Shown here one piece after another: positions 87-60,577 of a DNA stretch of 64,000 nucleotides. Source of the DNA: Pohlia nutans. Lineage: Eukaryota > Streptophyta > Bryopsida > Bryales > Mniaceae. Below the pieces are notes generated by a model. It worked only from the letters and a program-made list of their open reading frames with translations, was not told the origin of the DNA and did not search any database. Position 1 is the first letter of the stretch. The number at the start of each line of letters is the position of its first letter. The position numbers and the translations under genes were made by a program. The stretch spans positions 9,301,501 through 9,365,500 of the forward strand of contig CM040096.1 in the NCBI GenBank assembly GCA_022496805.1, written 5' to 3'.

Positions 87-445
87 TTAACCCTTAAACG
101 TCAAAGCAAGCCCCACGGGCTTCTTGTGAAAGAATAATCTAGGAAAAAAGTAGTTTTCCTCAACCAAAACAAGCGAGAATTGGTGCATTGGAAAGCTAAA
201 AAAGCGAGTTAGATTCTTGACTTGCGCCTCATTTGGGAGATTGTGGAATCATCCACAAGCAATCAAAGTAACCGATTTGAACAGGAGTTCAGGTTGGGCA
301 ACTGAGGTCGTTTTTAAAAAAGTGCCGTAGTGCAACAATGTTGCAGCAGTGGCTGGCCAGGAGAGCTGTTTTTTGTTTTTTTTCCCAAAAATTTAGATGC
401 CTTCCAGGCTGCCCCGCCCAGGCCCTCTTGAAGTTTAAGGGTTAA
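87..445. mobile_element. TTAA-bounded element T5, copy 1
   Basis: Starts TTAACCCTTAAACGTCAAAG; the right end read inward is TTAACCCTTAAACTTCAAGA. An inverted, near-identical copy is at 22471-22830. It has no coding capacity. It forms the left part of an 820-base block (87-906) that is shared as a whole. Confidence 0.88.
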
Positions 446-4445: not shown

Positions 4446-5562
4446 TTAACCCCTAAATGCCTAGAGCCCTCTCCAAATTCGACAATTTTGCAAAGATGCA
4501 TTGTAAATCATCCCCTTTTTAATCGGTTCATACAGTGGCGGACAAAACTGAGTATTGATTTGAAACTTTTCCATTCAAACAACCATACCATGAGCATCAA
4601 TGGGCAAAGTCCAAAAGTGAATATACAAAAGTTGTAGTGTGCGACATATAACACATTACTACAGAAGTTTGAAGAAAAACTCAATTGTGATTTGAAAGAA
4701 AATGGATTTCAAAGTTAGCCATGTCTAAAACTCAATTTTGTGCGATATAATTTGGAACTACTTTAAATTTTGTCAAATTTTTCTTAGAGCTTCAAAAAAA
4801 CTTTTTGTGCCTTGGCATGTTGGTATACATTATTTAAGATTGTTGTACACAAAAATTGAAGGAAGTTGATATTTATAGAATTTAAAATATTCACAATTTG
4901 ACAAACATGCAAATGATGTTGGTTCTCACGATATTTGAATTATTTTTTGGAATTGAAAGCATGGGACTACATTGGCCATTGTATAGAGAGCATAGGTTGC
5001 AACATGAACCATTGTTACATCTTAATGCCCTTGCATTTGAAATAGTTGTTGAATAGGCCAATGCATTCAATTTATATATTAGAGCTATATGATGCAGTTT
5101 TTTGGTTTAGGTTTTTTGTTCAAAAACTAGAGTTCATTATACCAACATGCCAAGGCATAGAAAGTTTTTTTGAAGCTCTAAGAAAAAATTGACAAAATTT
5201 AAAGTAGCTCCAAATTATATCGCACAAAACCGAGTTTTAGACATGGCTAACTTTGAAATCCATTTTCTTCCAAATCACAATTATGTTTTCTTCAAACTTC
5301 TGTAGTAATGTGTTATATGTCGCACACTACAACTTTTGTATATTCACTTTTGGACTTTGCCCATTGATACTCATGGTATGGTTATTTGAATGGAAAAGTT
5401 TCAAATCGATACTCAGTTTTGTCCGTCACTGTATATGCATGGTTAACTCCCCATAAAATCTACTAACAGTAAAAAAATCCACTCTGCTAAAAGTACATGA
5501 CGGATGAGAAAACATGAATGAAATCTGTACATCGTCCAAAAAATTAACGCTCAGGCAGTTAA
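4446..5562. mobile_element. TTAA-bounded element T1, deleted copy carrying a Tc1-like insertion
   Basis: Begins TTAACCCCTAAATGCCTAGA and ends CGCTCAGGCAGTTAA. Its own sequence is only about 220 bases because the centre was lost (join near 4505); 4533-5431 is the inserted Tc1-like element. It is separated from T3 (3625-4438) by only GAGACCC. Confidence 0.8.
4533..5431. mobile_element. Tc1-like non-autonomous element with 300-base inverted ends
   Basis: 899 bases flanked by TA (4531-4532 and 5432-5433). The ends begin CAGTGGCGGACAAAACTGAG, the usual Tc1 start. Inverted arms of about 300 bases (4533-4834 and 5137-5431) pair almost throughout; the 300-base centre has no transposase. It sits inside a TTAA-bounded T1 element (4446-5562), whose uninterrupted relatives give the empty site. 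Confidence 0.9.
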
Positions 5563-7140: not shown

Positions 7141-10100
7141 TTACACGTGGCTGGGTACACTTCGGAATGAACCCAGTGCTTTGAACGGGCGTGCTCTCAA
7201 TACATATTGGTGGTAAGCGGCAGCCAAAGCAGCTCCTAGAAGTGGACCCACCCAGAAGATCCACTGCACATCATCCAGCAATTCATTTTGTAAAGTAAGT
7301 TCAAGGACGTACTGTAACGCACTCAAATATTATTCCAATCGTACTAAAGTGAGAAAGAAAAAAAGGCCCAATCGAGAAAAAGGTTCAGTAAAATAAAAAC
7401 ATAATAGGACATATGCGCATGAATGCATAGCCTTCATTGCCACTTACATGATCATCCCAAGATTTGCTGCGGTTGTAAATCACCGCTGCACCAAAGCTCC
7501 GGGCGGGGTTGATGCCCGTTCCCGTGATGGGAATGGTTGCCAGATGCACCATAAACACTGCAAAGCCAATGGGAAGTGGAGCCAACACCTGGAGAAACAC
7601 AACACAACACGGAGCATAATATAAATAATAAACGTAGGACTTTTCATGTCTTGGTTTTAATTATAATTTTTAACTTTAACTATAATTTTTTAATTAGCTA
7701 GTACACGGGCTAAGTAGCTCTTCAGTTGTATTAAAAACTACTTACAGGTAATGCCAGCTAGGCGGTGGATTTCGTCTTATTAATCATGGCACAAGTTTCC
7801 AGTACCGAAATGGTCGTTGTGGAATCTGAAGCAACTTGGACTCCAACTTGGACTCCAGCTTGGAGAGATGAGCGAGCACTAAGGAGGCCGGGTCCCGCTC
7901 ATAATTATGTTGATATATTACAAAGCACGTGCCGAACGTTGCATTTGCATGAATCAGTCTAACTAACCTCGTCGGTACGTTAGAATAGTAAATACTCGTA
8001 GTTTTCAGTGAAACTGGTGCAGTTTTAGTTGCCCAACTGAAACCTCAGATGTACACCCGTCCTAACTTTTTGGAGCTCTAGGCACTTGAACGTCACAATT
8101 TAGCTCTCTAAACATGAAACTGGGGCAGTTTCATTCGCCAACCGTAACCTCGATAAGCTCTATATCAGTCCTAGTTTTCAGAGCTCTATGCACTTTGAAC
8201 ATCACTATTTTGGTCCTATACAATATGCCATTTTTAAGAAGACTTGTGCAAGTTGGACTGATGAAGCATCTTTCTACAATGAAACCTTGGACAATGGTTC
8301 ATTCTAAATGCATGCTTGAGGTCCACTACTCATAACGACTCTAATTCATTCCTTTGACTGAGAACCGTGTAAAATACACTGGTTTAGTCGCCCAGACTGA
8401 AACCTTAGATCTTTACCAGTCCGAGTTCTCAGAGCTAGAGACACTTGAACCGCTCATTGTTGGCGCACTGATCGAAACAGGCCATTTTTACGAATTAGAA
8501 TATTCGATGACCATGCATCCTGTTAGCAATTGTTAGTGGAATCATTTCATTTGAATGCGTGCACCAAAATAAAATAAAAGAAGCTCTGATCAATCGAGTG
8601 ATTGGGGCTAGCTGCCGGTCTAGCTAGCTATAGCCTGCAGGATGAATAGAATGAAGACTGTACCGGCACATGAGAGTCTCGGGCATTGCGCTTGGGATCG
8701 GTGGCAGAGAAGACGGTGTAGACGAGAACGAAGGTGCCGATGATCTCCGCGGCCAGGCCCGTGCCCAGGCTGTAGCCGGCCGCCACGGAGTTGGCCCCTC
8801 CGCCGTTGTTCATGTAGAACGAATGCTGGAACGCCTTCACGAGGCCGGCACCGCAGATGGCCCCCAAGCACTGCGCCACCATGTACGCCAGCGTTCGCGG
8901 CAGCGAGATCTTGCGCGCCAACAGCAACCCGAACGTCACCGCCGGATTAATATGCCCCCCTGCATGCACCCCCACAGTCCTGTAAATACAATCCTCCCAT
9001 CCTTACTGTGCATGCAGTTCCAGTATTCTCACAGCTACAAATTTATGCTTGCAGCTCCAAATCACCATTCCAGCAACGATTCTGATACTACTGGCTTAAC
9101 TTTCGAGACAATAACTAACTTCATCTACAACGGAGAACTCGTTATTCAAGCCCACAGCAGGCACGTCTTCACTCTCATATTTGTAGCTCAGTAAACAGCC
9201 CTTAATCTATCTCAGGAGAGGATTTCAGTAACACTCACCAATCACCGTTCCAGCAACGATTCTGATACTACTGGGTTAACTTTCGAGACAGTCAGCAAGT
9301 GTTATTCTAGGAGTTCGAGTGTTATTAACTAACTTCATCTACAACGGAGAACTCATAACGTACTTCTAGCCCACCGCAGGCACGCCTTCACTGTCATTTT
9401 TGTAACGCAGTAAACAGCCCTTACTCTATCTCAGAAGAGGATTTCAGTAATACTCTTCTTATGAATCTTATGAGGATCTCAGTCTAGCTAAATCTTATGA
9501 ATGCTCCAAATTCCTATTCTCACTACTAGGATCATACTGACTGATTGCTACGTAGGGGAGTACTATATATAACAACGTTACGGTTCCTAAACGTTGCTTG
9601 AGTTACTCCACAGTGTACATATGATCTGATATTACTAGCTACTGGTTTAATTTTCGAGACGACAACTACAACGGTGAAAGAAATAACTCTAGCATACAGT
9701 TAAGTCTGTGAAATAAATGTAGTTGAATAGGAAGCCATTGTGCCTCCAGAGCCTTAAAATCACAAGCCATTTGAGTCGCAACGAGAGGATTTCAAGTCCA
9801 ATGACCGACTCATGCATGAGGCTGTGTACGTAGGGCGGCGTCGGTGGAATAATATTGTCAAAGTATTGATTGATATTTGAGGTTTGAAGCGCCAAATTCG
9901 AAGTGAACCATGACATAAATTCAAGAGCACTACCTGAGATACCGGCGGTGCAATAGACGAGCACGAAGATCATGCCGCCAAAGGCCCAGGCGATGCCCAG
10001 AAGGCCCACGCCTGCACAGCCCGGGTTGTTGCTGGCGCCCACGACGGTGGCGATGGTGATGTACAGGAACAGCAATGTGGCCACGAACTCCGCGATGATG

Positions 10101-10210
10101 GCTCTGTAGAACGACCATTTCCCGAACTCTGCGGCGTCGATCAGCGGTGCCGGCGGCGGGTCCGTGTAGTCTTTCAGCCGCGGCTTCACGCCCACATCCC
10201 CTGTCGCCAT
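7141..10210 (-). CDS. PIP2: PIP2-type plasma-membrane aquaporin, four exons
   Basis: Water channel of the plasma membrane (MIP family, PIP2 subgroup). Exons on the minus strand are 10210-9934, 8959-8664, 7588-7448 and 7263-7141; all introns are GT-AG and phases fit, giving 278 residues, normal for PIP2. Seen: PIP2 N-terminus with [20 protein letters not shown], loop B motif [12 protein letters not shown], loop E motif [11 protein letters not shown], the PIP signature [20 protein letters not shown], and C-terminus [12 protein letters not shown]. The selectivity-filter positions read F, H, T, R, as expected for a water-selective channel. The first NPA motif is split by intron 1 at the codons before GGH; the alternative upstream acceptor at about 8990 breaks the frame. 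ATG 10210 is chosen because it begins the family-typical [10 protein letters not shown]. The frame stays open 62 codons upstream, but that stretch does not look like a PIP. The short N-terminus argues against PIP1. Confidence 0.97.
7990..8470. repeat. Diverged tandem repeat in PIP2 intron 2
   Basis: Three degenerate direct copies of about 100-130 bases begin near 8008, 8113 and 8367. Each runs through the blocks GAAACTGGKGCAGTTT, AACCTYAGATSTWYACC and AGAGCTCTAKGCACTTGAAC. They lie wholly in intron 2. Short reading frames across them are not conserved between copies, so they are not exons. Confidence 0.65.
9045..9470. repeat. Tandem duplication inside PIP2 intron 1
   Basis: Two diverged direct copies, about 9050-9225 and 9236-9455, share the blocks AATCACCRTTCCAGCAACG, CTAACTTCATCTACAACGG and GTAAACAGCCCTTA. 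The second copy carries about 35 extra bases. A third fragment with the ATACTACTGG / TTCGAGAC blocks lies near 9630-9680. No transposon ends are seen, so this looks like local duplication. Confidence 0.8.
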
Positions 10211-10476
10211 CGCTGGTCCCTCCCTCACAATCAACGGTAAGTTACAGTCTGTTCTAGATCGATACAGTGCCTGCAAGTTAAGAAACTCGAGGTAGTGAGT
10301 GCGAGAGAGAGAGAGAGACAGTGTAATGAGTCTTAAGAGATGGTGCGTTAAAGGCAGACCTCTGACAGAACTAGAAGGACGGAAAGCAAACTGCAACTGA
10401 GCACAGACAGACAGCGAGATTGTTCAGCTTGCTAGACGAGCAGGTGCAGATTAATTTGATGCCTTGACGTCGCTGG

Positions 10477-14918: not shown

Positions 14919-15245
14919 TTAACCCCTAAACGTACCGACCCTTTGAATAGTAGATACTAGCCTTAATAGTAGATATTAGCATGGCTCAGATGTACATGAG
15001 GTGTACATGAGAGGTCCATTGCAAACATGAAATCTACCCAACAAATTTGACATACTTGCATTTGGAGGCCTCTCCAATATTATCAACATCTCAACATCAC
15101 AAGAGATTAACTTTAATTGGTAAAGAACCTAATAGACTTGCAAATATGACTTGGATGAAAGTCATCCGAGATTGTATGAGAAAGTTACCAAGCTTTGAAT
15201 CTGTTCGTAATCCAGTTTCTGGACGCTGGGACGTTTAGGGGTTAA
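14919..15245. mobile_element. TTAA-bounded element T8
   Basis: 327 bases. Both ends read inward as TTAACCCCTAAACGTMCC. A single copy in this window with no coding content. Confidence 0.8.
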
Positions 15246-16413: not shown

Positions 16414-17224
16414 TTAACCCTTTAGTGCCTAGCAAACCACATTATGGTCACTACAATGTCCGAAATGCAAATAGCAGAGAATCCGTGAAGAATTGGAATT
16501 TCGGTTTTGAAGTTCAGATTTGCGCACATACATTACGCACCTTCCAGAAAAAGATATTTTCAATTTGGAATTGCACAACTATCAAAATACCTATCAACAG
16601 AACGCAAAAATACTGCAAATACTTGAAAATACAGTAAATACTTACAAATACAACATATGTATTGTGTAGTATTTCTTGTGTTTGGAAGTTTGTTATCTTG
16701 TTTTATTTTTTTGGATTGTGTTCTCTTCTTCATCTTCCATTAGTGTGTGTAATCCGATCTTGACTAATGTACCCACTCCTGTCAATTTTCAACGTATAAA
16801 ATTTTGTCCTAAACTGTACATGGACAAGTCACTTTCACTTATAAATCTCACATTAATTATGTGTGAGTCTATTTTTGATATGAAAGATTGCAACGGAGAG
16901 GTGTTGACATAGGGCATAGCTGAACTTCTTTGCTTTTATTTTTGAAAATTTACCTCAAATTCTATTTAACTTTGAAGTCACACACCCCCCAAAATCTCGT
17001 TTTTGAGCGTGCAGTATACAGTTCAAATACATACTATAATCTTCCGATCCCACCATTGGATGATTCTCAAATTTTAATAAAATGTGTGCTCTCGAGTTGA
17101 GAATAGAATTGTACGGTTACTTTCTAATTTAACCCATTCTATTTTTGGTAGTCTCAACCACAGTGGAAAAACCCACTGAAATCCAGAGCTGTCTGCTACA
17201 GTACCCTGGGCACTAAAGGGTTAA
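16414..17224. mobile_element. TTAA-bounded element T4, copy 1
   Basis: 811 bases. Begins TTAACCCTTTAGTGCCTAGC and ends GGGCACTAAAGGGTTAA. It matches T4 copy 2 (50819-51621) in the same orientation along its length, including GAATCCGTGAAGAATTG and TATTTCTTGTGTTTGGAAGT. Confidence 0.88.
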
Positions 17225-20894: not shown

Positions 20895-21432
20895 TTAACC
20901 CTTTGACGTGCATATAATGGACAATGAACAGATTGTAAGCCTTCTCATTACTACATGTCGTACAATTTTTCATCCATCCAAATTTCCTAGGTTCTTGTGC
21001 GAGTTGACTACCATTTGTACAGTATGAATCTTCAAAATAAGATATTGTGATTTTTTTTTAAATGGCAAAATTGGTTGATGTCAAGTTTCATTCTTAGTTC
21101 AAAACGTGAGACCTTAACAATGATTTTCCAAAATAAGTAGAATCAAATTATAGAAATTATACCATCTCATAGTGCATGTTATTCCAAATTCGATATAATT
21201 TTTTTAATAAAAATTTGTTAATTTGGGATTTTAAAGTGAATTTCAAAAGAAAACCTTGCAAAATGAATTTAAAAATATTAATTATTTTTTTGATAAATCC
21301 AACTGAACAAATGTGATCTACACATTGAGATTTACAACTTTTCTTTATGTATGAACTTCATTTTTGTGATTCATCAAACATTTTATAACACATCTTTGAA
21401 ATCGATGGTGAATCTGGTCGTTAAAGGGTTAA
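20895..21432. mobile_element. TTAA-bounded element T7
   Basis: 538 bases. Ends read inward TTAACCCTTTGACGTGCATA and TTAACCCTTTAACGACCAGA. A single copy here, non-coding and AT-rich. Confidence 0.75.
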
Positions 21433-22009
21433 AAGTGACATGTGTGGTGTCTTAATCTCTAAAGGATCAAAAATTCACACCTTTGAAATGACTAATTTGA
21501 TTGATCGTATTGTGAAAGACGTATTTCAAATGGGCCCAAATTTTATATTGCCAGAATCAATGAAGAACATTGCATATGTTGGTAAAAACAAATAAAATTG
21601 AAAATGTAAAAGTTCCTAATTACATAATCAGCCCAAAAGTGCTAAGAAAAACATGAGGCTCAATTGGGGCTTCTTGGACCTTCAGAGGTTGATTGGTTGG
21701 GATCTGTAAAATAGAGATATCAACCGAGCCCATGACCGAATCGAATGCTTTCAAAAAAGGGTGGACTATTGTTGGTTCTTCCCCAAATCCAGTTCCTTTC
21801 TGATTTGTGTAGAATAGACCTCCACATTTTTCCAAATGAAAACATAGAGAACAAGTGGCTAGTCGCATAGTCTCTACCTTAGTATATTGTTTAGACATGT
21901 AATTCTTTGAAAACAAAGCATTTTCGTAGTCTCTCCCCTGGTAGGGCTGAGACAACAAAATCTCACATTCCATGAAAACTTGTAGGTTTCCCATTCCTGT
22001 GGCTTTCAG

Positions 22010-22470
22010 TTAACCAAGGACTCAAGCGTGCACCATGCGGGACATGGTTTCAAGGTTCGCATGTTTTTTCCAACTGGATGAGCACGACTTCCCTAACTAC
22101 TTGTGTCGGCGTATGGAGTTCAAGCAGCCACGTCATTCATGGACCTTATTTGATATGCCATTGTCAAAGAAAAAAATTAAAGAATAAACTAGAGCCTACC
22201 AAAAGGATGCAAACGGACCGTCTGCTCACACCAAATGTTGTGATTTCCAAGGAATTCAAGATCATGTGGTGTGCAACACGCATGATAGGGCCTCTCTCAT
22301 ATGTTTTAATTACATTATCAGCACATCAGATGCGCATTTCACATATGAATTCGCTGCATGAGAAATGGAGATAGTAACGAAACATGACGAAGTCTATTTA
22401 CTCTACTCTCTGCAATGTAAGTTGATGGAGCAGAACTATGCGATTATAAAGCAGAGCTTGCTGTCAGCAT
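22010..22470. repeat. Inverted copy of the 446-906 segment
   Basis: Matches the reverse complement of 446-906 closely, starting TTAACCAAGGACTCAAGCGT. Similarity stops on its outer side exactly at the TTAA. Confidence 0.75.
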
Positions 22471-22830
22471 TTAACCCTTAAACTTCAAGAGGGCCTGAGC
22501 GGGGCAGTTCGGAAGGCATCTAAATTTTTGGGAAAAAAAACAAAAAAACGGCTCTCTTGGCCAGCCACTGCTGCAACATTGTTGCACTACAGCACTTTTT
22601 TAAAAACGACCTCAACTACCCAACCTGATCTCCTGTTCAAATCGGTTACTTTGATTGCTTGTGGATGATTCCACAATCTCCCAAATGAGGCGCAAGTCAA
22701 GAATCTAACTCGCTTTTTTAGCTTTCCAATGCACCAATCCTCGCTTGTTTTGGTTGAGGAAAACTACTTTTTTCCTAGATTATTCTTTCACAAGAAGCCC
22801 GTGGGGCTTGCTTTGACGTTTAAGGGTTAA
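22471..22830. mobile_element. TTAA-bounded element T5, copy 2 (inverted)
   Basis: 360 bases, near-identical to the reverse complement of 87-445. Ends are TTAACCCTTAAACTTCAAGA and GCTTTGACGTTTAAGGGTTAA minus its first base. The shared block continues to a further TTAA at 22010-22013. Confidence 0.88.
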
Positions 22831-22856: not shown

Positions 22857-23088
22857 TTAACCCTTGAACGGCCCGAGAGCCCTTTGCGGCCATATAATAT
22901 ATTCTGTATTAGTTGGTATTTTATCAAAACAACAATGACCAAATACATTTCAGTACAAAGTAAAATCAATAATCATGATAATATGTATATAACAATATAT
23001 CACAATTCATGTATTAAATCACAATTGAACAATTATAAGGCTAAATACGGGTCGTAGAGAGGGACCCCAAGGACCTTTTAAGGGTTAA
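22857..23088. mobile_element. TTAA-bounded element T6
   Basis: 232 bases. Ends read inward TTAACCCTTGAACGGCCCGA and TTAACCCTTAAAAGGTCCTT. Only 26 bases separate it from T5 copy 2. Confidence 0.7.
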
Positions 23089-24510: not shown

Positions 24511-25034
24511 TTAACCCCTAAATGCTCAAATCTAACGGGCTGCCTGGAACAAAAAATATGTTTTTGAAAAAAAAAAAAAACTAAAAAAAATACTACATCA
24601 TGTTTACTTTTCAACGCAATTTGAATTATGTCAATCCAAGTTAAACTCCACCTGGGAGAATTTTTCAAGTGGATCACCTCAACATTGTCTTAGTGTTATA
24701 AAATTTGCTATTTGGAGAAAGTAATGATGTTCCCTCCATCATTTCTTTTGCTTTTTTGAAGTTTACAATAGATAAACCAAATTTAACCAATCATGCTAAA
24801 TTTTAAACTCTAAAAGCAAAAATTTATAATTTATACAAATTTTCAAAGGTTAATGCTTTTAAATTCATTAAAAAAATATCTAAAGTTATTTTTGGAAGTT
24901 TGACCATACGGATAATTTGTAGAGATGATGCCCTACATTTTGTCCATTGAACCAAACTTCATCAAATATATGGAAGGCACACATTATAATACATCTATGT
25001 TTTGTCCCATACTCCTTAGACTTTTAGGGGTTAA
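24511..25034. mobile_element. TTAA-bounded element T2, copy 1
   Basis: Begins TTAACCCCTAAATGCTCAAA and ends GACTTTTAGGGGTTAA. Its last TTAA is also the first TTAA of T1 copy 25031-25605. It retains the intact site AAGTTAAACTCCACC (TTAA at 24641-24644) that is interrupted by T4 in T2 copy 2. Confidence 0.85.
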
Positions 25035-25605
25035 CCCCTAACTGCCCAACCGTTCATTTTTTGGACAATGTACAGATTTCATCCACGTTTTCTCATCCAT
25101 CATGCACTTTGTTGCTAGGAATAAAAATACTACAAAATTCTATGGCAAGATAGCTTCATGCATATGTGATCTGATTAGAAAGGGGATGATTTGTGAAAAA
25201 ATTATGCCTCATTTCATGTTGCAATGATTCACCAAAAAAATTGAAGATTTTAGTCTAAATGTGCTCTTGAAAAAATTAACTCATAAAATTAAGCAACCAA
25301 AAAATCTCCAAAAATCACTACACTTAGAGTATTACATTTCAACCCATCACAACAAATCTCATCCATAGATTGTCAATATCTTATTCGTAATTGAATTTCA
25401 AAATTTTTGAATTTCAAGTTTCAAAATTTATACAAAAACATTAGTGATAGCAATCGTAGATCTAACCGTATGGATAGAATCTAAAATTTACAATGTACAA
25501 CTTTTATTCATACCTCAAGTTCAAAATATCCATCTTGGTTGCAATTTAGGATTCATCTTTTCAAACTACCCAAACTGGACAAGGGTGAGGACGTTTAGGG
25601 GTTAA
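25031..25605. mobile_element. TTAA-bounded element T1, copy abutting T2
   Basis: Begins TTAACCCCTAACTGCCCAAC and ends TGAGGACGTTTAGGGGTTAA. It shares one TTAA with the T2 element on its left. Same orientation as 40717-41293, opposite to 52831-53365. Confidence 0.88.
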
Positions 25606-28587: not shown

Positions 28588-28676
28588 ATTTGTTCAAGAG
28601 CAAAGGAATGTAGAATGTAGAGAGCAAAGGACCATCTCCCTCATAAATAAGAGGAGCCTTGTTGTGAAAAATAACA

Positions 28677-28995
28677 CATAACATTTAGTAGCGTCTGTGA
28701 CTACTACCTTCCCCCAACATAATGATGCGGAATATTCCACATCATTTCATCCCCAATGAAATGATGTGGAATATTCTACATCACATCAGTAGTTATGGGG
28801 GGCACGTGGCATTAAGCAAGAGCAACTAACCATGGTTAACAGTAATCGAAAGCACTCATTTAGTCACAATTCAATAGTGTCCTGTAGTTGTTTATTTGAT
28901 TCAATAGCCCATTCAATTACAGATCACTGGTCACTCCATTTATAAAGGTAGATGAAACTAAAAATCAACCTTCTCGAAAGCTACTGAATGTTATG
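28677..28995. repeat. Three-copy TIR repeat, copy A
   Basis: Ends CATAACATTTAGTAGC and GCTACTGAATGTTATG. It contains a palindrome (ATGATGTGGAATATTCCACA type), TTTATAAA and the ATTGAATCAAATAAAC block. Inverted relative to copies B and C. The target duplication is not clear. Confidence 0.78.
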
Positions 28996-29049
28996 CATGT
29001 TGAGCCATGGAGGTGGTAAAATATACAAACGGAAATACAACCAAAATGT

Positions 29050-32609: not shown

Positions 32610-32655
32610 ATTTCTAACTGTTTGACCGTAGGCAAGAGAGTTGCAATAGGACATG

Positions 32656-32974
32656 CATAACATTCACTAGCCTTCCAAGAGGCTGCCTTTTAGTTTCATC
32701 TACCTTTATATATAGAATGACGAGTGATTTGTAATTTAATGGACTATTGAATCAAATAAACAATTACAAAACACTGTTGAGTGTGATTGAGTGAGTGCTT
32801 TGGATTACTGTTCACCATGGTTGATTGCTCTTGCTTAATGCCACCTGCCCCCAAAGCTACTGATGTGATGTGGAATATCCCACATCATTTCATTGGGGGG
32901 ATGAAATGATGTGGGATATTCCACATCATTCTGTTGGGGGAAGGCAGCAGTCACAGAGGCTACTGAATGTTATG
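32656..32974. repeat. Three-copy TIR repeat, copy B
   Basis: 319 bases, ends CATAACATTCACTAGCC and GGCTACTGAATGTTATG, near-identical in layout to copy A, with the GGGATATTCCACATCATT hairpin on the right. Confidence 0.8.
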
Positions 32975-33118
32975 TGCATGATCCTAAGGAGGGACAGGTA
33001 CATTAACTTTTTTTAATCTGGATCATTGGAATGCTTTTCTCTTGTGTCAGTTTAAGATTCATGGAAAGGAAATAATGTTGGAAGTTGGAACCACTGTAAA
33101 GCGCCATATGTACTACTG

Positions 33119-40716: not shown

Positions 40717-41293
40717 TTAGCCCCTAAACGTCCAACCGTCTAGGAAGTGGACGATGTACAGAATCAAACACAGTTTTCTCATCCGTCATTGACTTTTTGC
40801 AGTGTGGACTTTTTACTATATATTTTACGGGAAGTTAACTTCGTGCATTTGTGATCTAATTAAAAAGGGGATGATTTGTGAAAATTTTATGCTTCATTTC
40901 ATGTTGTAGCGATTCACCCAAAATTTTGAAGATTTCAGAGTAAAAGGGCTCTTAAAAAAGTCAATTCATAAAAATAAGCAACCAAAAAATCTCCAAAAAT
41001 CGCTACACTTAGAGTATTACATTTCAACCAATCACAACAAATTTCATCCACAAATTGTCAATATCTTATTCGTAATTGAATTACAAAATATTTTTGAATT
41101 TCAAGTTTCAATTTTTATACAAAAATATTGGTGACAGCAATCGCAATTCTAACTGTATGAATAGAATCTAAAATTGATAATGTACAACTTTTATTCATAC
41201 ATCAAGTTCAAAATACCCCTCTAGGTTGCATTTTATTATGCATCTTTGCAAAACTGCCGAATTTGGAAAGAAATGAGGACGTTTAGGGGTTAA
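40717..41293. mobile_element. TTAA-bounded element T1
   Basis: 577 bases. The left boundary reads TTAG (one change from TTAA) followed by CCCCTAAACGTCCAACCGTC; the right end is GAGGACGTTTAGGGGTTAA. Intact across the site that is interrupted by a MITE in 45898-46928. Confidence 0.88.
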
Positions 41294-44629: not shown

Positions 44630-44871
44630 AGGGAGCATTTACCTTAAAACGTGCGTATTTACTACAATGTGACATTTCATATGTGAAATGTCACACTATA
44701 GCAATGTACGGGGAGATCCGGTAGGTAGTGTAAAATCAGCCAAATGGAATTGCCACATTACCGGTTGAAACTCATAGTTTTAGGCTAAAATCTAAATAAA
44801 ATTTTGTGATACTCGTGTGTTACGTAGGTGAAACATGGGTAATAATCATATGGGTTCTTGTTTAACCCCTA

Positions 44872-45455
44872 ACCGTCCCGACGTCCATATTTTGGACGTT
44901 TTTGGGGTAGATTCACCTTTGAAGAGCTGTAACTTTCTCAAAAAGTGTTTGATTTTGATGAAATTTTGGAAAAACAAACCACATGATGTATAATTTTAGT
45001 GGAAAAAATCTCAGATCAATCCAAGATGTATTGAACTTCTGGGGATCATTTTAAAGTAGTTGCATTTGTTTTGGATAGTTTTTGTGCATTTTGATGGCTG
45101 AAACTTTGGAGGCTTGTATCTCCTTCATCCCATGTTCGTTTTCAATAAAAAAAAATCATTGGGTTGGATTTCCCTTGAAGTTTAGTTATCATGGTAAAAA
45201 ATTTCATGTCAATCCATGTTGTTTTGAATGTTTGGGAGTCATTTTAGTGCACAGGTCTAGTTTGGACACATTTTGCCTTTTGGGTCAAATCGGTCACTTT
45301 TCGGGCTACTTTTTGACATTGCAAGGCCATTTTAGGGCACATTAAATTTTTTTCATGAGGCTTTAACTGTGTTGCTCGGAAAATTTCAACATCCTTTTCT
45401 AACACTAAAACACTATGATTTTGTCCCAAAAAAGTTAGGGACGCTCAGGGGTTAA
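44872..45455. mobile_element. TTAA-bounded element T3, copy 2
   Basis: 584 bases. Begins TTAACCCCTAACCGTCCCGA and ends GGACGCTCAGGGGTTAA. Inverted relative to 3625-4438. Confidence 0.82.
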
Positions 45456-45835: not shown

Positions 45836-46293
45836 TGCTTCCTAAAAGATAAAAGTTGATAAGCACAGTTTCACAGTGACAACTGTTTTAGAGTAAGTTA
45901 TCTCCTAAATGCCTACAACCCTCTCCAGATTTGGAGAATTGTAAAGATGTATTATTTAATGCAACTAAGAGGGATATTTTGAACTTGATGTGTGAATAAA
46001 AGTTTTATATTATGAATTTTAGATTCTATTTATACAATTAAATTTATGATAGCAATCACCAATATTTTTGTATAAAATTTGAAACGTAAAACTCAAAACT
46101 CTTTTTTAATTCAAATATGAGTAAGATATTGACAAATTGTGGATGAAATTTGTTGTGATGGGTTGAAATGTAATAATCTAAATGTAGTGATTCTTGGAGA
46201 TTTTTTGGTTGCTTAATTTTATGAGTTGACTTTTTCAAGAGCACTTTTCATCTATTTTGAACTAAGATCTTAGAAATTTTTGGTGAATCACTA

Positions 46294-46323
46294 AGGTAGG
46301 ATGTCCTAAAACCACCACCCCCC

Positions 46324-46360
<37 letters not shown>

Positions 46361-46736
46361 TATGACATGTAGACCTTTCTTGGGACCACCATAGTTGAGA
46401 CTCAAAACCACCACAATTGAGACTCAAAACCGCCAATTTCACTATTCAAGTAGACCAATGGCATGCCAAGCATTGCGAAGAAATAGTTGGTGGTTTTGGG
46501 AGTGAAAATTAGTACCACATGGTGTAGACATGGGGAATCCTAGAGGTCTAATTTGGGTCACAAAGTTCTTTTCACTTCGAAAATTTGTATCAATTTGAAT
46601 ATTGAAAATTAGATTGCGAAAATTTGTGCATTCCGTGAGAAATCTTCTTCCAAGTAACCGAAAAATATTTCTCATAAATAACCTTGTTAAAATGAGGCCA
46701 TATTTCTTAAGTTGGTGGTTTTAGGACATCCTACCT
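46294..46736. mobile_element. TA-flanked MITE (AGGTAGGATGTCC ends)
   Basis: 443 bases with inverted ends AGGTAGGATGTCCTAAAACC, flanked by TA on both sides. It interrupts T1 copy 45898-46928; the related T1 copy at 40717-41293 keeps the intact site with one TA (near 40912). It contains a poly-C tract. It looks like a mariner-type MITE. Confidence 0.85.
46327..46357. repeat. Poly-C tract inside the 46294 MITE
   Basis: About 30 C in a row, directly after ACCACCCCCCAACC. Predicted proline or glycine runs across it are artefacts. Confidence 0.85.
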
Positions 46737-47551
46737 TACAACATGAAATGAGGCATAAAAATTTCACAAAGCATCCCCTTTCTAATCGGTTCACACATGC
46801 ATGAAGCTAACTTCCCATAAAATCTATAGTAAAAATTTCACTCAACAAAAAGTGCATGACGGATGAGAAAACGTGGATGAAACCTGTACATTGTCCAAAA
46901 AATGAACGCCTAGGTAGTTAGGGGTTATACCATACTACTATAGCAAGGTCACCACCCTGCGAGTGAATATCTATTATTTTTTGAAAAATAATGTGCACCC
47001 CTCAAACAATGAATTTCTTGATTTTTGTTTTTTAGCAAAAAAAATGATCAAAAATGACCCAAAATGGCTTAGAAATATAAACATATAGCCCAAAACAATT
47101 TATTCTAGTTTCATTTTTTGTCCTCATAATCCCGATTTTTTATGGTTTTTTTTTTTTTTTTTTTTTTTGGAATTATTTTCACTATCGTTTTTATATCACA
47201 CCTTTGGTAACCACCATACATAAGCAGAAGTTGGCATGTGGAAGGATTAATCCTATAACTCTTTTATACCACCCCTTCAGTGATCAACACACGAGTTCAG
47301 AACTTGACATGTGGAAAGTGCAGACACTAGAAATGTGATATTAGAGAGTGTGATTTCATTACGAGCTCGAAGTGCAACTTAGGTTCGCATGCCATTTTAA
47401 CGCTTCTCATATACCAAACCGTTAAGGTCTCCTGCATCTTGCCATTGCAATCAGACTTTAAAAAGCAAAGAACTCTGGAAATTGCACCAGTATATTTCAG
47501 GTGACACTCACTGCTTCACTCATTCATAGAAATGATAGGATCATATGCCAT

Positions 47552-50411: not shown

Positions 50412-51779
50412 TTAACCCCTAAAAGCCCAAGGGGTATTGGACAAAACGTAGATGTGTTATAATATGTGTCTTCCATATGTTTGATGAAGTTTCATTCAAT
50501 AGACAAAACGTAGGACATCATGTCTACAAATTATCCATACGGTAAAATTTCAAAAAAAAAAGCTTTAAATGTTTGATTCTTTTGATGAATTTAAAAGCAT
50601 TATCCTTTGAAAATTTCTATAAATTATAACTTTCACTTTTAGAGTTTAAAATTTAGCATGATTGGTTAAAGTTGGTTTATCCATTGTAAAATTCAAAAAA
50701 GCAAAAGAAATGATGGAGGGAATACCATTACTTTCTGCAAATAGAAAATTTTATACCACTGATACAATGTTGAGGTGATCCATTTTGAAAATGTCTCCCC
50801 GGTGGAGTTTAACCCTTTAGTGCTCAAATAACCACTTTGTGATCTCTGATGTGTCAGAAACGCGAATAACAAAAAATCCGTGAAGAATTGAATTTTGAAT
50901 TGTGAAGTTCAAATTTGGAGACTTATAATACACATCTTTTAGAAAAATATTTCTTTTCAATTTGGAGTTGTACAACTATCAAAATACCTATTAAAAAAAT
51001 GCAAAATTATTGCAAATATTTGAAAATACAGTAAATAATTACAAATACAGTACATGTACTATGCGGTATTTCTTGTGTTTGGAAGTTTGTTATCTTGTTT
51101 ATTTTTTTTGGATTGTGTTCTCTTGTTCATGTTCCATTAGTGTATGTATTCCAATCTTGATGCATGTACCAACTCCTTTCATATTTTAATGTATAAATTT
51201 TTGTCCTAAACCGTACATGGATAAGTCGCTCTCACTTATAAAATTCACAATAATTACGTGTGAGTCCGTTCTTGACATGAAAGATTGCAACGGAGAGGTG
51301 TTGACATAGGTCATTGCTAAACATCTTCACTTTCATTTTAGAAAATTTAACCCAAATTCTATTTAACTTTGAAGTCACAAACCTTCCAAAATCTCATTTT
51401 TGAGTGTGCATTATACGGTTCAAAGACATACTATGATCTTCCAATTCCACCATCGGATGATTCTCTAATTTTGGAAAAATGTCTCCATTCCAATTGAGAA
51501 TACACTTGTACAGTTAGTTTCTAATTTAATCCATCTTATTTTTGATAGTACCAATCACAGTGGAAAAACCTAGTGAAATTTAGTGAACAGAGCTACAGTA
51601 CCATGAGCAGTAAAGGGTTAACTTGGATTGACATAATTCAAATTGCATTGGAAAGTAGACTTGATGTAGTACTTTAAAATATTTTCTATTTATGCAAAAA
51701 CTTAGTTTTTTTTGTTACGGGCAGCCCATTATAAACGGGCAACGACCAAAAAATGGTCACTTGGGAGCTTAGGGGCTAA
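50412..51779. mobile_element. TTAA-bounded element T2, copy 2, host of a T4 insertion
   Basis: Begins TTAACCCCTAAAAGCCCAAG and ends GAGCTTAGGGGCTAA. Inverted relative to T2 copy 1. It is interrupted at 50819-51621 by T4. Its right boundary (CTAA, 51776-51779) is shared with T2 copy 3, which points the other way. Confidence 0.88.
50819..51621. mobile_element. TTAA-bounded element T4, copy 2, nested in T2
   Basis: 803 bases. Begins TTAACCCTTTAGTGCTCAAA and ends AGCAGTAAAGGGTTAA. Flanks GGTGGAGT and CTTGGATTGA are contiguous around a single TTAA in the T2 copy at 24511-25034, which demonstrates a four-base TTAA target duplication. Confidence 0.92.
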
Positions 51780-52307
51780 CCCTTAAGTGACCAAATGACC
51801 ATTTAATGGTCGTTGCCTTTTATCACGGGGTGCCAAGGATGAGATTTTTTTAATAAAAAATAAAACATTTTCAAATAGGAAATCAAGTCTACTTTCCAAC
51901 ACAATTTGAATCATGGTAATCCGAGTTAAGCTCCACCGAAGAAAAAATTTCAAAAACAAACACCTCAACATTGTCCTTGTGTTATAAACTTACTATTTTA
52001 GGGAAGTGATAATGTTCTCTCCATTAAAAAAAGTTCCTTTTTAAATTTTAAGATAGAATGTCTGGTTTTAACCAATCATACCAAAATTCAAATTCTAAAA
52101 ATAAAAGTGTTAATTTTAGTGAATATTCAATGATAAATGCTTCTAAGTTCATTAAATGAGTGTTTAAAATAGATTGTATTCCCACAGAGCTCTTGAAATT
52201 CCTCACGTTCACTAAAATCCTCTGAATATTAAACTCAAATTGACATTATAGGAACCTACCTAGTTTTGTAAATGTCCTAGTTAGGCACTTGGTACTTTAG
52301 GGGTTAA
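51776..52307. mobile_element. TTAA-bounded element T2, copy 3
   Basis: 532 bases, oriented like copy 1 and forming an inverted pair with copy 2. Begins CTAACCCTTAAGTGACCAAA and ends GGTACTTTAGGGGTTAA. It keeps a second intact version of the T4 target (GAGTTAAGCTCCACC, TTAA at 51926-51929). Confidence 0.82.
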
Positions 52308-52830: not shown

Positions 52831-53365
52831 TTAACCCCTGAACGTCCTCACCTTCTCCACATTTGGCAGTTTTGCAAACAGGCATTATAAAATGCAACTA
52901 AGAGGGATATTTTGAACTTGATGCATAAATAAAAGTTATACATTGTGAATTTTAGATTCTATCTATAAAATTTGAAACTAGAATTCAAAATTCTTTTGTA
53001 ACTCAATTACAAATAAGATATTGACAATCTATGGATGAAATTTGTTGTGATGGGTTGAAATGTAATACTCTAAGTGCAGTGATTTTTGAAGATTTTTTTG
53101 TTGCTTGATTTTATGAGTTGACTTTTTCAAGAGCACTTTTACAGTGAAATCATGAATTTTTTTGGTAGAACAATGTGGCATAAAAGGAGGCATAAAATTT
53201 TCACAAATCATCCCCTTTCTAATCAAATCACACATACATGAAGCTAACTTCCCATAAAAATTTCAGTAAAAAATCCACACTCCATAAAGTGCATGATGGA
53301 TGAAATATCGAAGTTCAAATCTGTTCATTGTTCAAAAACTGAGTGGTTGGATGTTTAGGGATTAA
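52831..53365. mobile_element. TTAA-bounded element T1
   Basis: 535 bases. Begins TTAACCCCTGAACGTCCTCA and ends GGATGTTTAGGGATTAA. The interior matches the other T1 copies over nearly the full length. Confidence 0.88.
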
Positions 53366-53412
53366 ATTATGATGTGGACAGTCACTAATTTCACACCAAA
53401 TCGCTTGCATAG

Positions 53413-53691
53413 CATAACATTTAGTAGCCTTTAAGAAGGCTGCCTTTTAGTTTCATCCACCTTTATATATGGAGTGACCAGTGATTTGTAATTGAATGGG
53501 CTATTGAATCAAATAAACAATTACAAAACACTGTTGAATTGTGATTGAGTGAGTTCTTTCGTTACTATTCACCATGGTTAGTTGCTTTTGCTTAATGCCA
53601 CCTGCCCCCCATAGCTACTGATGCGATGTGGAATATCCCACATCATTTTGTTGGGGGAAGGCAACAACCACAGAGGCTATTGAATGTTATG
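53413..53691. repeat. Three-copy TIR repeat, copy C
   Basis: 279 bases, ends CATAACATTTAGTAGCC and GGCTATTGAATGTTATG, flanked by TAG on both sides. It lacks one arm of the internal hairpin present in A and B. Confidence 0.8.
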
Positions 53692-60037: not shown

Positions 60038-60577
60038 TTAACTCCTAAGTGCCCACACCCTTCTTCATATTTGGAAAGTTGCAAAGATGCATTATAAAAT
60101 GCAACTAAGAGGGATATTTTGAACTTGATGTATAAATAAAAGTTGTACAATATGAATTTTAGGTTCTATCCATACAATTAGATCTGCAATTGCTTAAATT
60201 TCAAAATTCTTTCTTATTTGCTTGAATAAAAAAATTATTTGTAATTTGTTTGTTGGGATGGGTTGAAATGTAATACTCTAAGTGTAATGATTTTTGGGAT
60301 TTTTTGATTGCATAATTTTATGAGTTGATTTTTTCAAGAGCACTTTTGAACTAAGATCTTAGAAACTTTTGGTGAAACACTGCAATATGAAATGAGGCAT
60401 AATTTTCTCACAAATCCCCTTTCTAATTGGTTCACACATGCATGAAGTTAACTTCCCATAAAATCTATACTAGAAAACCCACACTGCAAAAAGTGCATGA
60501 CATATGAGAAAACGGAGTTTGATTCTGTACATCATCCAGAAAATGTATGGTTGGATGGTTGGGCGTTTAGGGGTTAT
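60038..60577. mobile_element. TTAA-bounded element T1
   Basis: 540 bases. Begins TTAACTCCTAAGTGCCCACA and ends GGGCGTTTAGGGGTTAT. Same orientation as 52831-53365. It lies about 275 bases beyond the 3' end of the HAT3.1-like gene. Confidence 0.85.

Follow-up and report, generated by a model that had tools for sequence, protein, structure and literature searches.

The window analysed here is a stretch of 64,000 nucleotides of contig CM040096.1 of the moss Pohlia nutans. It carries the exons of a PIP aquaporin gene (7388-10423, minus strand); the protein is 89% identical to that of Physcomitrium patens, 84% to that of Sphagnum jensenii and as much as 93% to JGI proteins; ranked by E-value, a rice protein (65%) comes first. 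Elements of a TTAA-flanked type cover 11,796 bases (18%) of the window, counting incomplete copies and E7, a doubtful element. The positions of these elements, and of transposase-bearing relatives found on other contigs, are given in Table 1.

T4 copy 2 lies inside T2 copy 2 and interrupts it at a duplicated TTAA. The filled site reads GGTGGAGT-TTAA-CCCTTTAGTGCTCA...TGAGCAGTAAAGGG-TTAA-CTTGGATTGACATAATTC. The left end of the element is CCCTTTAGTGCTCA and the right end, reverse-complemented, is CCCTTTACTGCTCA; CCCTTTASTGCTCA is present at both, and the two ends agree at 13 of their outermost 14 bases. The same site is kept uninterrupted, with a single TTAA, in four other T2 copies: copies 1 and 3 in the window and two on other contigs (L040 on C12 and L004 on C1). 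The preliminary description of this stretch had reported the nesting and the two single-TTAA sites in the window, and was right on both; it gave the span of the element as 50819..51621, in which the end is correct and the start is 10 bases late, within the left terminal repeat, the true start being 50809. T4 copy 1 aligns with copy 2 from end to end, TTAA to TTAA, at 82.4% identity over 813 columns. T2 copies 2 and 3 share the site CTAA (TTAG on the other strand), which is taken as a mutated TTAA. The T4-in-T2 arrangement is found again in locus L003 (C11:9.25 Mb; 86% identity over 1,988 columns), where the right target is TTGA; as this is a duplicated copy of the same nested locus, it is not counted as a second insertion.

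Table 1. Elements and target sites in the window (window positions) and delimited transposase-bearing elements elsewhere in the genome (contig and positions)
Feature	Position	Strand	Source or remark
E1 element	87..445	+	left end like that of autonomous element L038 (25/30, best of 20 shuffles 20)
327-bp element	14919..15245		CCCCTAAACGT at both ends, TTAA flanks
T4 copy 1	16414..17224	+	TTAA to TTAA, 811 bp; 98.5% identical to two copies in L060
538-bp element	20895..21432		CCCTTT ends, TTAA flanks
E1, second copy	22471..22830	-	
232-bp element	22857..23088		CCCTT ends, TTAA flanks
T2 copy 1	24511..25034		BLAST self-map
Empty TTAA site in T2 copy 1	24641..24644	-	minus strand reads GGTGGAGT-TTAA-CTTGGATTGACATAATTC
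T1 copy	25031..25605		left TTAA common with end of T2 copy 1; BLAST self-map
T1 copy	40717..41293		left site TTAG; BLAST self-map
T3 copy	44862..45455		CCCC ends, TTAA flanks; BLAST self-map
T1 copy	45898..46930		unrelated insertion inside, outer sites mutated; BLAST self-map
T2 copy 2 (contains T4 copy 2)	50412..51779		BLAST self-map
T4 copy 2 (non-autonomous), including its two TTAA target copies	50809..51621	+	element proper 50813-51617
Left TTAA target copy of T4 copy 2	50809..50812	+	
Right TTAA target copy of T4 copy 2	51618..51621	+	
T2 copy 3, adjoining T2 copy 2	51776..52307		BLAST self-map
Empty TTAA site in T2 copy 3	51926..51929	-	one TTAA; T2 copy more diverged
T1 copy	52831..53365		BLAST self-map
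T1 copy	60038..60577		right site ATAA in element orientation; BLAST self-map
L010	C14:13309059-13314093		5035 bp; 1004-codon frame
L020	C12:13026998-13032034		5037 bp; 1004-codon frame
L027	C5:45080108-45085183		5076 bp; two possible right ends, seven bases apart
L015	C13:7757043-7762597		5555 bp
L011	C6:1197091-1202597		5507 bp
L035	C14:16596648-16603447		6800 bp
L038	C7:11281945-11286680		4736 bp

The window contains 27 sites that fit TTAACCCYTAAACG with at most two mismatches. These are not due to chance, since five first-order Markov resamplings of the window gave 0 or 1 each (mean 0.4). Across the 698-Mb genome, the exact sequence occurs 35,940 times, compared with 12 for the reversed control. 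Many of the related families in the genome begin CCCC, which fits CCY and not a strict CCYT.

Several other repeats accompany the TTAA elements. A unit of about 820 bp, consisting of E1 and about 460 bp of flank, occurs twice in inverted orientation (87-906 and 22010-22830; 98% identical); the outer flanks of the two copies differ, both starting at TTAA, and the outer right end reads CTTGG-TTAA and has no CCC end. This unit may have moved by means of a cryptic end. The insertion within one T1 copy (~46291-46735) has AGGTAGGATGTCCTAAAACCACCA inverted ends and a C run; its AGGTAGG ends and TA-like target rule it out as a second TTAA event, and it is apparently a transposon of another type with a TA target. 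A large foldback (inverted-repeat) element with arms 95% alike lies at 4530-5434; it is perhaps nested in a further T1 copy, for which good alignment was limited to 5435-5561. A further repeat family has copies 87-89% alike at 28675-29000, 32651-32976 and 53412-53657, and the near-palindrome GATGTGG(A/G)ATAT(C/T)CCACATC is found in or beside them.

The piggyBac transposase domain is absent from the window: a Pfam scan of the 122 open frames of at least 70 codons matched nine families, and PF13843 was not among them. A Tc1/mariner-type piece, HTH_Tnp_Tc3_2 (PF01498, 7.2e-12), was found in one of the 122 frames and in none of ten frames that were rechecked. Two frames, 545-943 (133 codons) and 21976-22371 (132 codons), were considered as a transposase remnant and dropped, the first having no Pfam match.

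The rest of the genome is rich in this domain. The preliminary description had proposed that a search of the whole assembly for DDE_Tnp_1_7 (PF13843) might find a transposase with ends matching CCCYTAAACG. Of the 1,305 first-look candidates from a profile search, 116 were scored, and every one of these passed the cut-off (E ≤3.1e-74), so that at least 116 such places exist. The same domain was matched in none of 14 control genomes. Clustering of 30 fetched loci at 60% identity yields ten groups. The frame of L010 matches PF13843 at 1.2e-82 and two solved transposases, piggyBat (9c0f; E 1.1e-26) and Trichoplusia ni piggyBac (6x67; E 7.7e-26). The three catalytic aspartates of the DDD triad are present in 30, 29 and 30 of the 30 loci, respectively, the exception being an N at the second position in L013. 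The C-terminal cysteine-rich domain is also found: 25 of the 30 loci have two CxxC motifs in the C-terminal tail and the remaining five stop at most 57 codons past the domain, while the Pfam zinc finger PF13842 gave no score on L010. The open frame extends more than 400 codons before the domain in eight of the 30 loci. Between the frames of L010 and L027, dN is 0.26 and dS is 1.14 over 878 codons; the lower dN points to selection on the protein. The L010 and L020 frames, with dN 0.006 and dS 0.004, have too few changes to judge selection.

Flanks were extended for 13 of these loci and both ends could be set in seven. These seven elements are 4.7-6.8 kb long and flanked by TTAA, and have open transposase frames of 622-1104 codons; each thus carries a DDE_Tnp_1_7 transposase between piggyBac-type ends. 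Since ends were sought with the pattern TTAACC[CT] and a slightly looser form, the TTAA-CC[CT] start is partly a product of the search; the rest of the motif is not. Four elements have CCCYTAAACG exactly at one end (Y is C in L010, L020 and L027 and T in L038) and two more are within one mismatch of it (L015, CCCCTCAACG; L035, CCCTTTAACG), which makes six of the seven, and the expectation of such ends on piggyBac elements is thereby borne out; the end of L011 is two positions off. L010 and L020, on different contigs, have 99.4% identity over 5 kb, and their flanks diverge from TTAA outwards. No matching end pair was recognised in the stretches fetched for L016, L022, L026, L029, L030 and L032. 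Within L035 (C14:16598296-16598404), 112 alignment columns match an internal part of T4.

The relationship of T4 to these elements was assessed from their ends. The left end of T4 agrees with the end of L020 at 24 of 30 positions, barely above the 22 of the best of 20 shuffles, and eight of the matching bases are the common TTAACCCT. The same score against the L020 end (24 of 30) is reached by the T2 end at 51776. Fourteen autonomous ends, about 12 of them independent as two elements are near-identical, were compared with the window; only those of L038 (25) and L010/L020 (23, 24) are clearly above their own shuffles. The others score 20-22, against shuffle maxima of 20-21, and two of these matches fall outside TTAACC sites. 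A transposase-bearing element with T4's own CCCTTTAGTGC ends does not occur among the seven delimited elements, and a comparison of the transposase regions of the 13 extended loci with ten elements of the window brought up no T4 partner. Three places on C1 with oddly spaced T4 ends were rejected as partners on inspection: one consists of two T4 copies facing apart and the other two are T4 copies with nested elements.

Taken together with the insertion site, these data indicate that T4 is very probably a non-autonomous cut-and-paste element of the piggyBac superfamily in moss, moved by a transposase made elsewhere. Identity as piggyBac is likewise supported for the wider set of elements. The comparison of ends argues strongly that piggyBac enzymes would move the TTAA/CCC class as a whole, and suggests only weakly that any given one of them would move T4.

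The preliminary description had treated TTAA targets with CCY ends as diagnostic of piggyBac. The assignment to the superfamily is supported, on transposases with such ends; the combination does not fully identify piggyBac, since TTAA is also the target of Kolobok and Sola3. T4 could belong to another superfamily of this kind and resemble the piggyBac elements of the genome by chance: TTAA by itself names no superfamily, and T4's own transposase is not among the delimited elements. This is nonetheless improbable, judged from the ends and from PF13843 as the transposase domain sought in the genome. T4 copy 2 has terminal inverted repeats that begin as in the CCYT/CCCT rule given for piggyBac in passages of PMC10175614 and PMC12732532, in which CCCT and CCCTTT are among the reported end motifs. 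Moreover, PF13843 is carried by delimited elements with TTAA flanks and the ends CCCTTTAACG, CCCTTAAACG and CCCCTAAACG, and one such element is the source of the 24-base agreement with T4.

A further alternative turns on the size of the target duplication. This had been put at exactly TTAA on the strength of a natural empty site. The empty site reads GTTTAACTTGG; as the element begins with C and the target is palindromic, one such site fits TTAA, TTAAC, TTA, TAA and TA alike and proves none of them. The size of 4 bp is supported by genome-wide counts of T4-family ends, which decide most of the question, and by a nested site in L062. The 16-bp end CCCTTTAGTGCCCAGG is found on the right of T4 copy 1 and on both sides of the T4 copies in L061 and L062; it has 2738 exact copies in the genome (reversed control, 0). 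TTAA directly precedes 2570 of these (94%) and is missing in exact form from 168. T4 copy 2 differs from the counted 16-mer past CCCTTTAGTGC, diverging after 11 bases on the left and 7 on the right. TTAA is intact at the left in seven of eight fetched T4 loci and at the right in seven of eight.

Three nested insertions were also examined, all into one T4 subfamily whose loci were compared with each other; for two of them, made by two other families in L062 and L061, uninterrupted relatives have a single TTAA. In L062, a 949-bp CCCC-ended element lies in a T4 copy at ACTA-TTAA-TAGT; the corresponding site in L061 and in L040 is a single, uninterrupted TTAA, and the neighbouring bases exclude a longer repeat. 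In L061, T1 is nested in a T4 copy at TTAA; L062 is uninterrupted at this position and L040 is offset by one base. In L040, T2 is nested in a T4 copy at TTAA and the relatives read TTAG and TCAG, which is consistent with the 4-bp size and is not a clean test.

It is therefore highly improbable that these are PIF/Harbinger (TTA/TAA) or Tc1/mariner (TA) MITEs whose targets lie in TTAA by chance: a single empty site is equally compatible with TTA, TAA or TA, but the outermost T and A would vary if they were mere flank, and TTAA rather than a 3-bp TTA or TAA duplication is found on both sides of T4-family ends. Just as improbable is an origin without transposition, in which deletion, conversion or segmental duplication would account for the differences between T2 copies; L003 does show a duplication of the entire nested locus, but T4 copies stop at or beside TTAA in six loci with flanks unlike those of the window copy (L002, L004-L008) and the exact family ends are spread in their thousands across the genome.

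If T4 is a piggyBac-superfamily element, as favoured here, it would be MITE-like, and a piggyBac transposase encoded elsewhere in the genome would cut it out at its CCC...GGG ends. The excised element would be joined into TTAA with a 4-base stagger, and once this was filled in on both sides, the element would be flanked by TTAA left and right. The window families T1, T2 and T3, and several smaller ones, would be of the same type; transposase-bearing relatives with open frames lie on other contigs. The transposases described above, or one of them, would then be the source of T4 mobility. The moss piggyBac elements may also be active at present, as judged from sequence.

Protein searches with the moss transposase returned 83 and 242 proteins; the former scored only the 7,994 candidates with most shared words. 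Among the 83 and the best 120 of the 242, all matches with a named organism are animal, the closest are environmental proteins up to 74% identical, and there is no named plant protein. This absence may reflect the masking of transposons in annotation as well as limits of the searches. A tree was built from 57 chosen sequences: 16 of the 30 moss loci, 31 environmental proteins and 10 animal proteins picked from the matches. All 16 moss and 21 environmental sequences form one clade (100/99), in which the two kinds are interleaved; the other 10 environmental sequences lie outside it. The mixed clade fits a diverse, older lineage rather than a single recent arrival. Some of the environmental sequences could themselves be from mosses.

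The moss elements share with members of the piggyBac superfamily such as T. ni piggyBac (6x67) and piggyBat (9c0f) the TTAA duplication, CCC(T) ends and PF13843 with the DDD triad, and most moss copies also share the C-terminal cysteine-rich tail. They differ in their moss host, in size, being longer than the beetle piggyBac elements of 2.1-3.5 kb described in a passage of PMC12732532, in the long frame ahead of the domain in eight of 30 loci, and in descent, as the transposases are separate from the sampled animal sequences and grouped with environmental ones. The piggyBac-type MITEs of animals are short and non-autonomous, and carry TTAA and CCC at their ends. T4 resembles them in all these respects; the difference lies in the host, a moss, and may lie in the abundance of TTAACCCYTAAACG in its genome.

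According to PMC12732532, piggyBac is a transposon of animals, fungi and protists and occurs in plants only occasionally, red algae being one example. In land plants, parts of published papers mention 1,230 'PiggyBac' repeats in the fern Ceratopteris (PMC6890710), PiggyBac among the MITE superfamilies of angiosperms (PMC10004981, a review) and a single 75-bp piggyBac hit in a grass (PMC8319324). The fern class and the angiosperm MITEs carry the same label as the moss elements; the passages in question give the label without transposase, ends or target, whereas all three occur together in moss. Titles and abstract openings listed by a search largely outside subscription papers contain no description of moss piggyBac elements, and both occurrences of 'piggybac' in the available text of the moss genome paper PMC10619864 are 'piggybacking'. 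The statement that the superfamily is hardly described from land plants thus agrees with the print found, with the reservation that the label appears in a fern repeat table and in an angiosperm MITE review.

A broader reading is that mosses have long kept a deep, plant-resident branch of piggyBac, with at least ten lineages in one genome, several of them with intact frames and one recently mobile, which has seeded tens of thousands of genome-shaping TTAA-ended MITEs; the chances for and against this are about even. A land plant with many diverse open-frame copies would change the accepted range of piggyBac, and the long-term fate of these elements in plants would become open to study. Unclassified moss repeats would merit re-examination, and plant-native piggyBac systems could serve as genetic tools.
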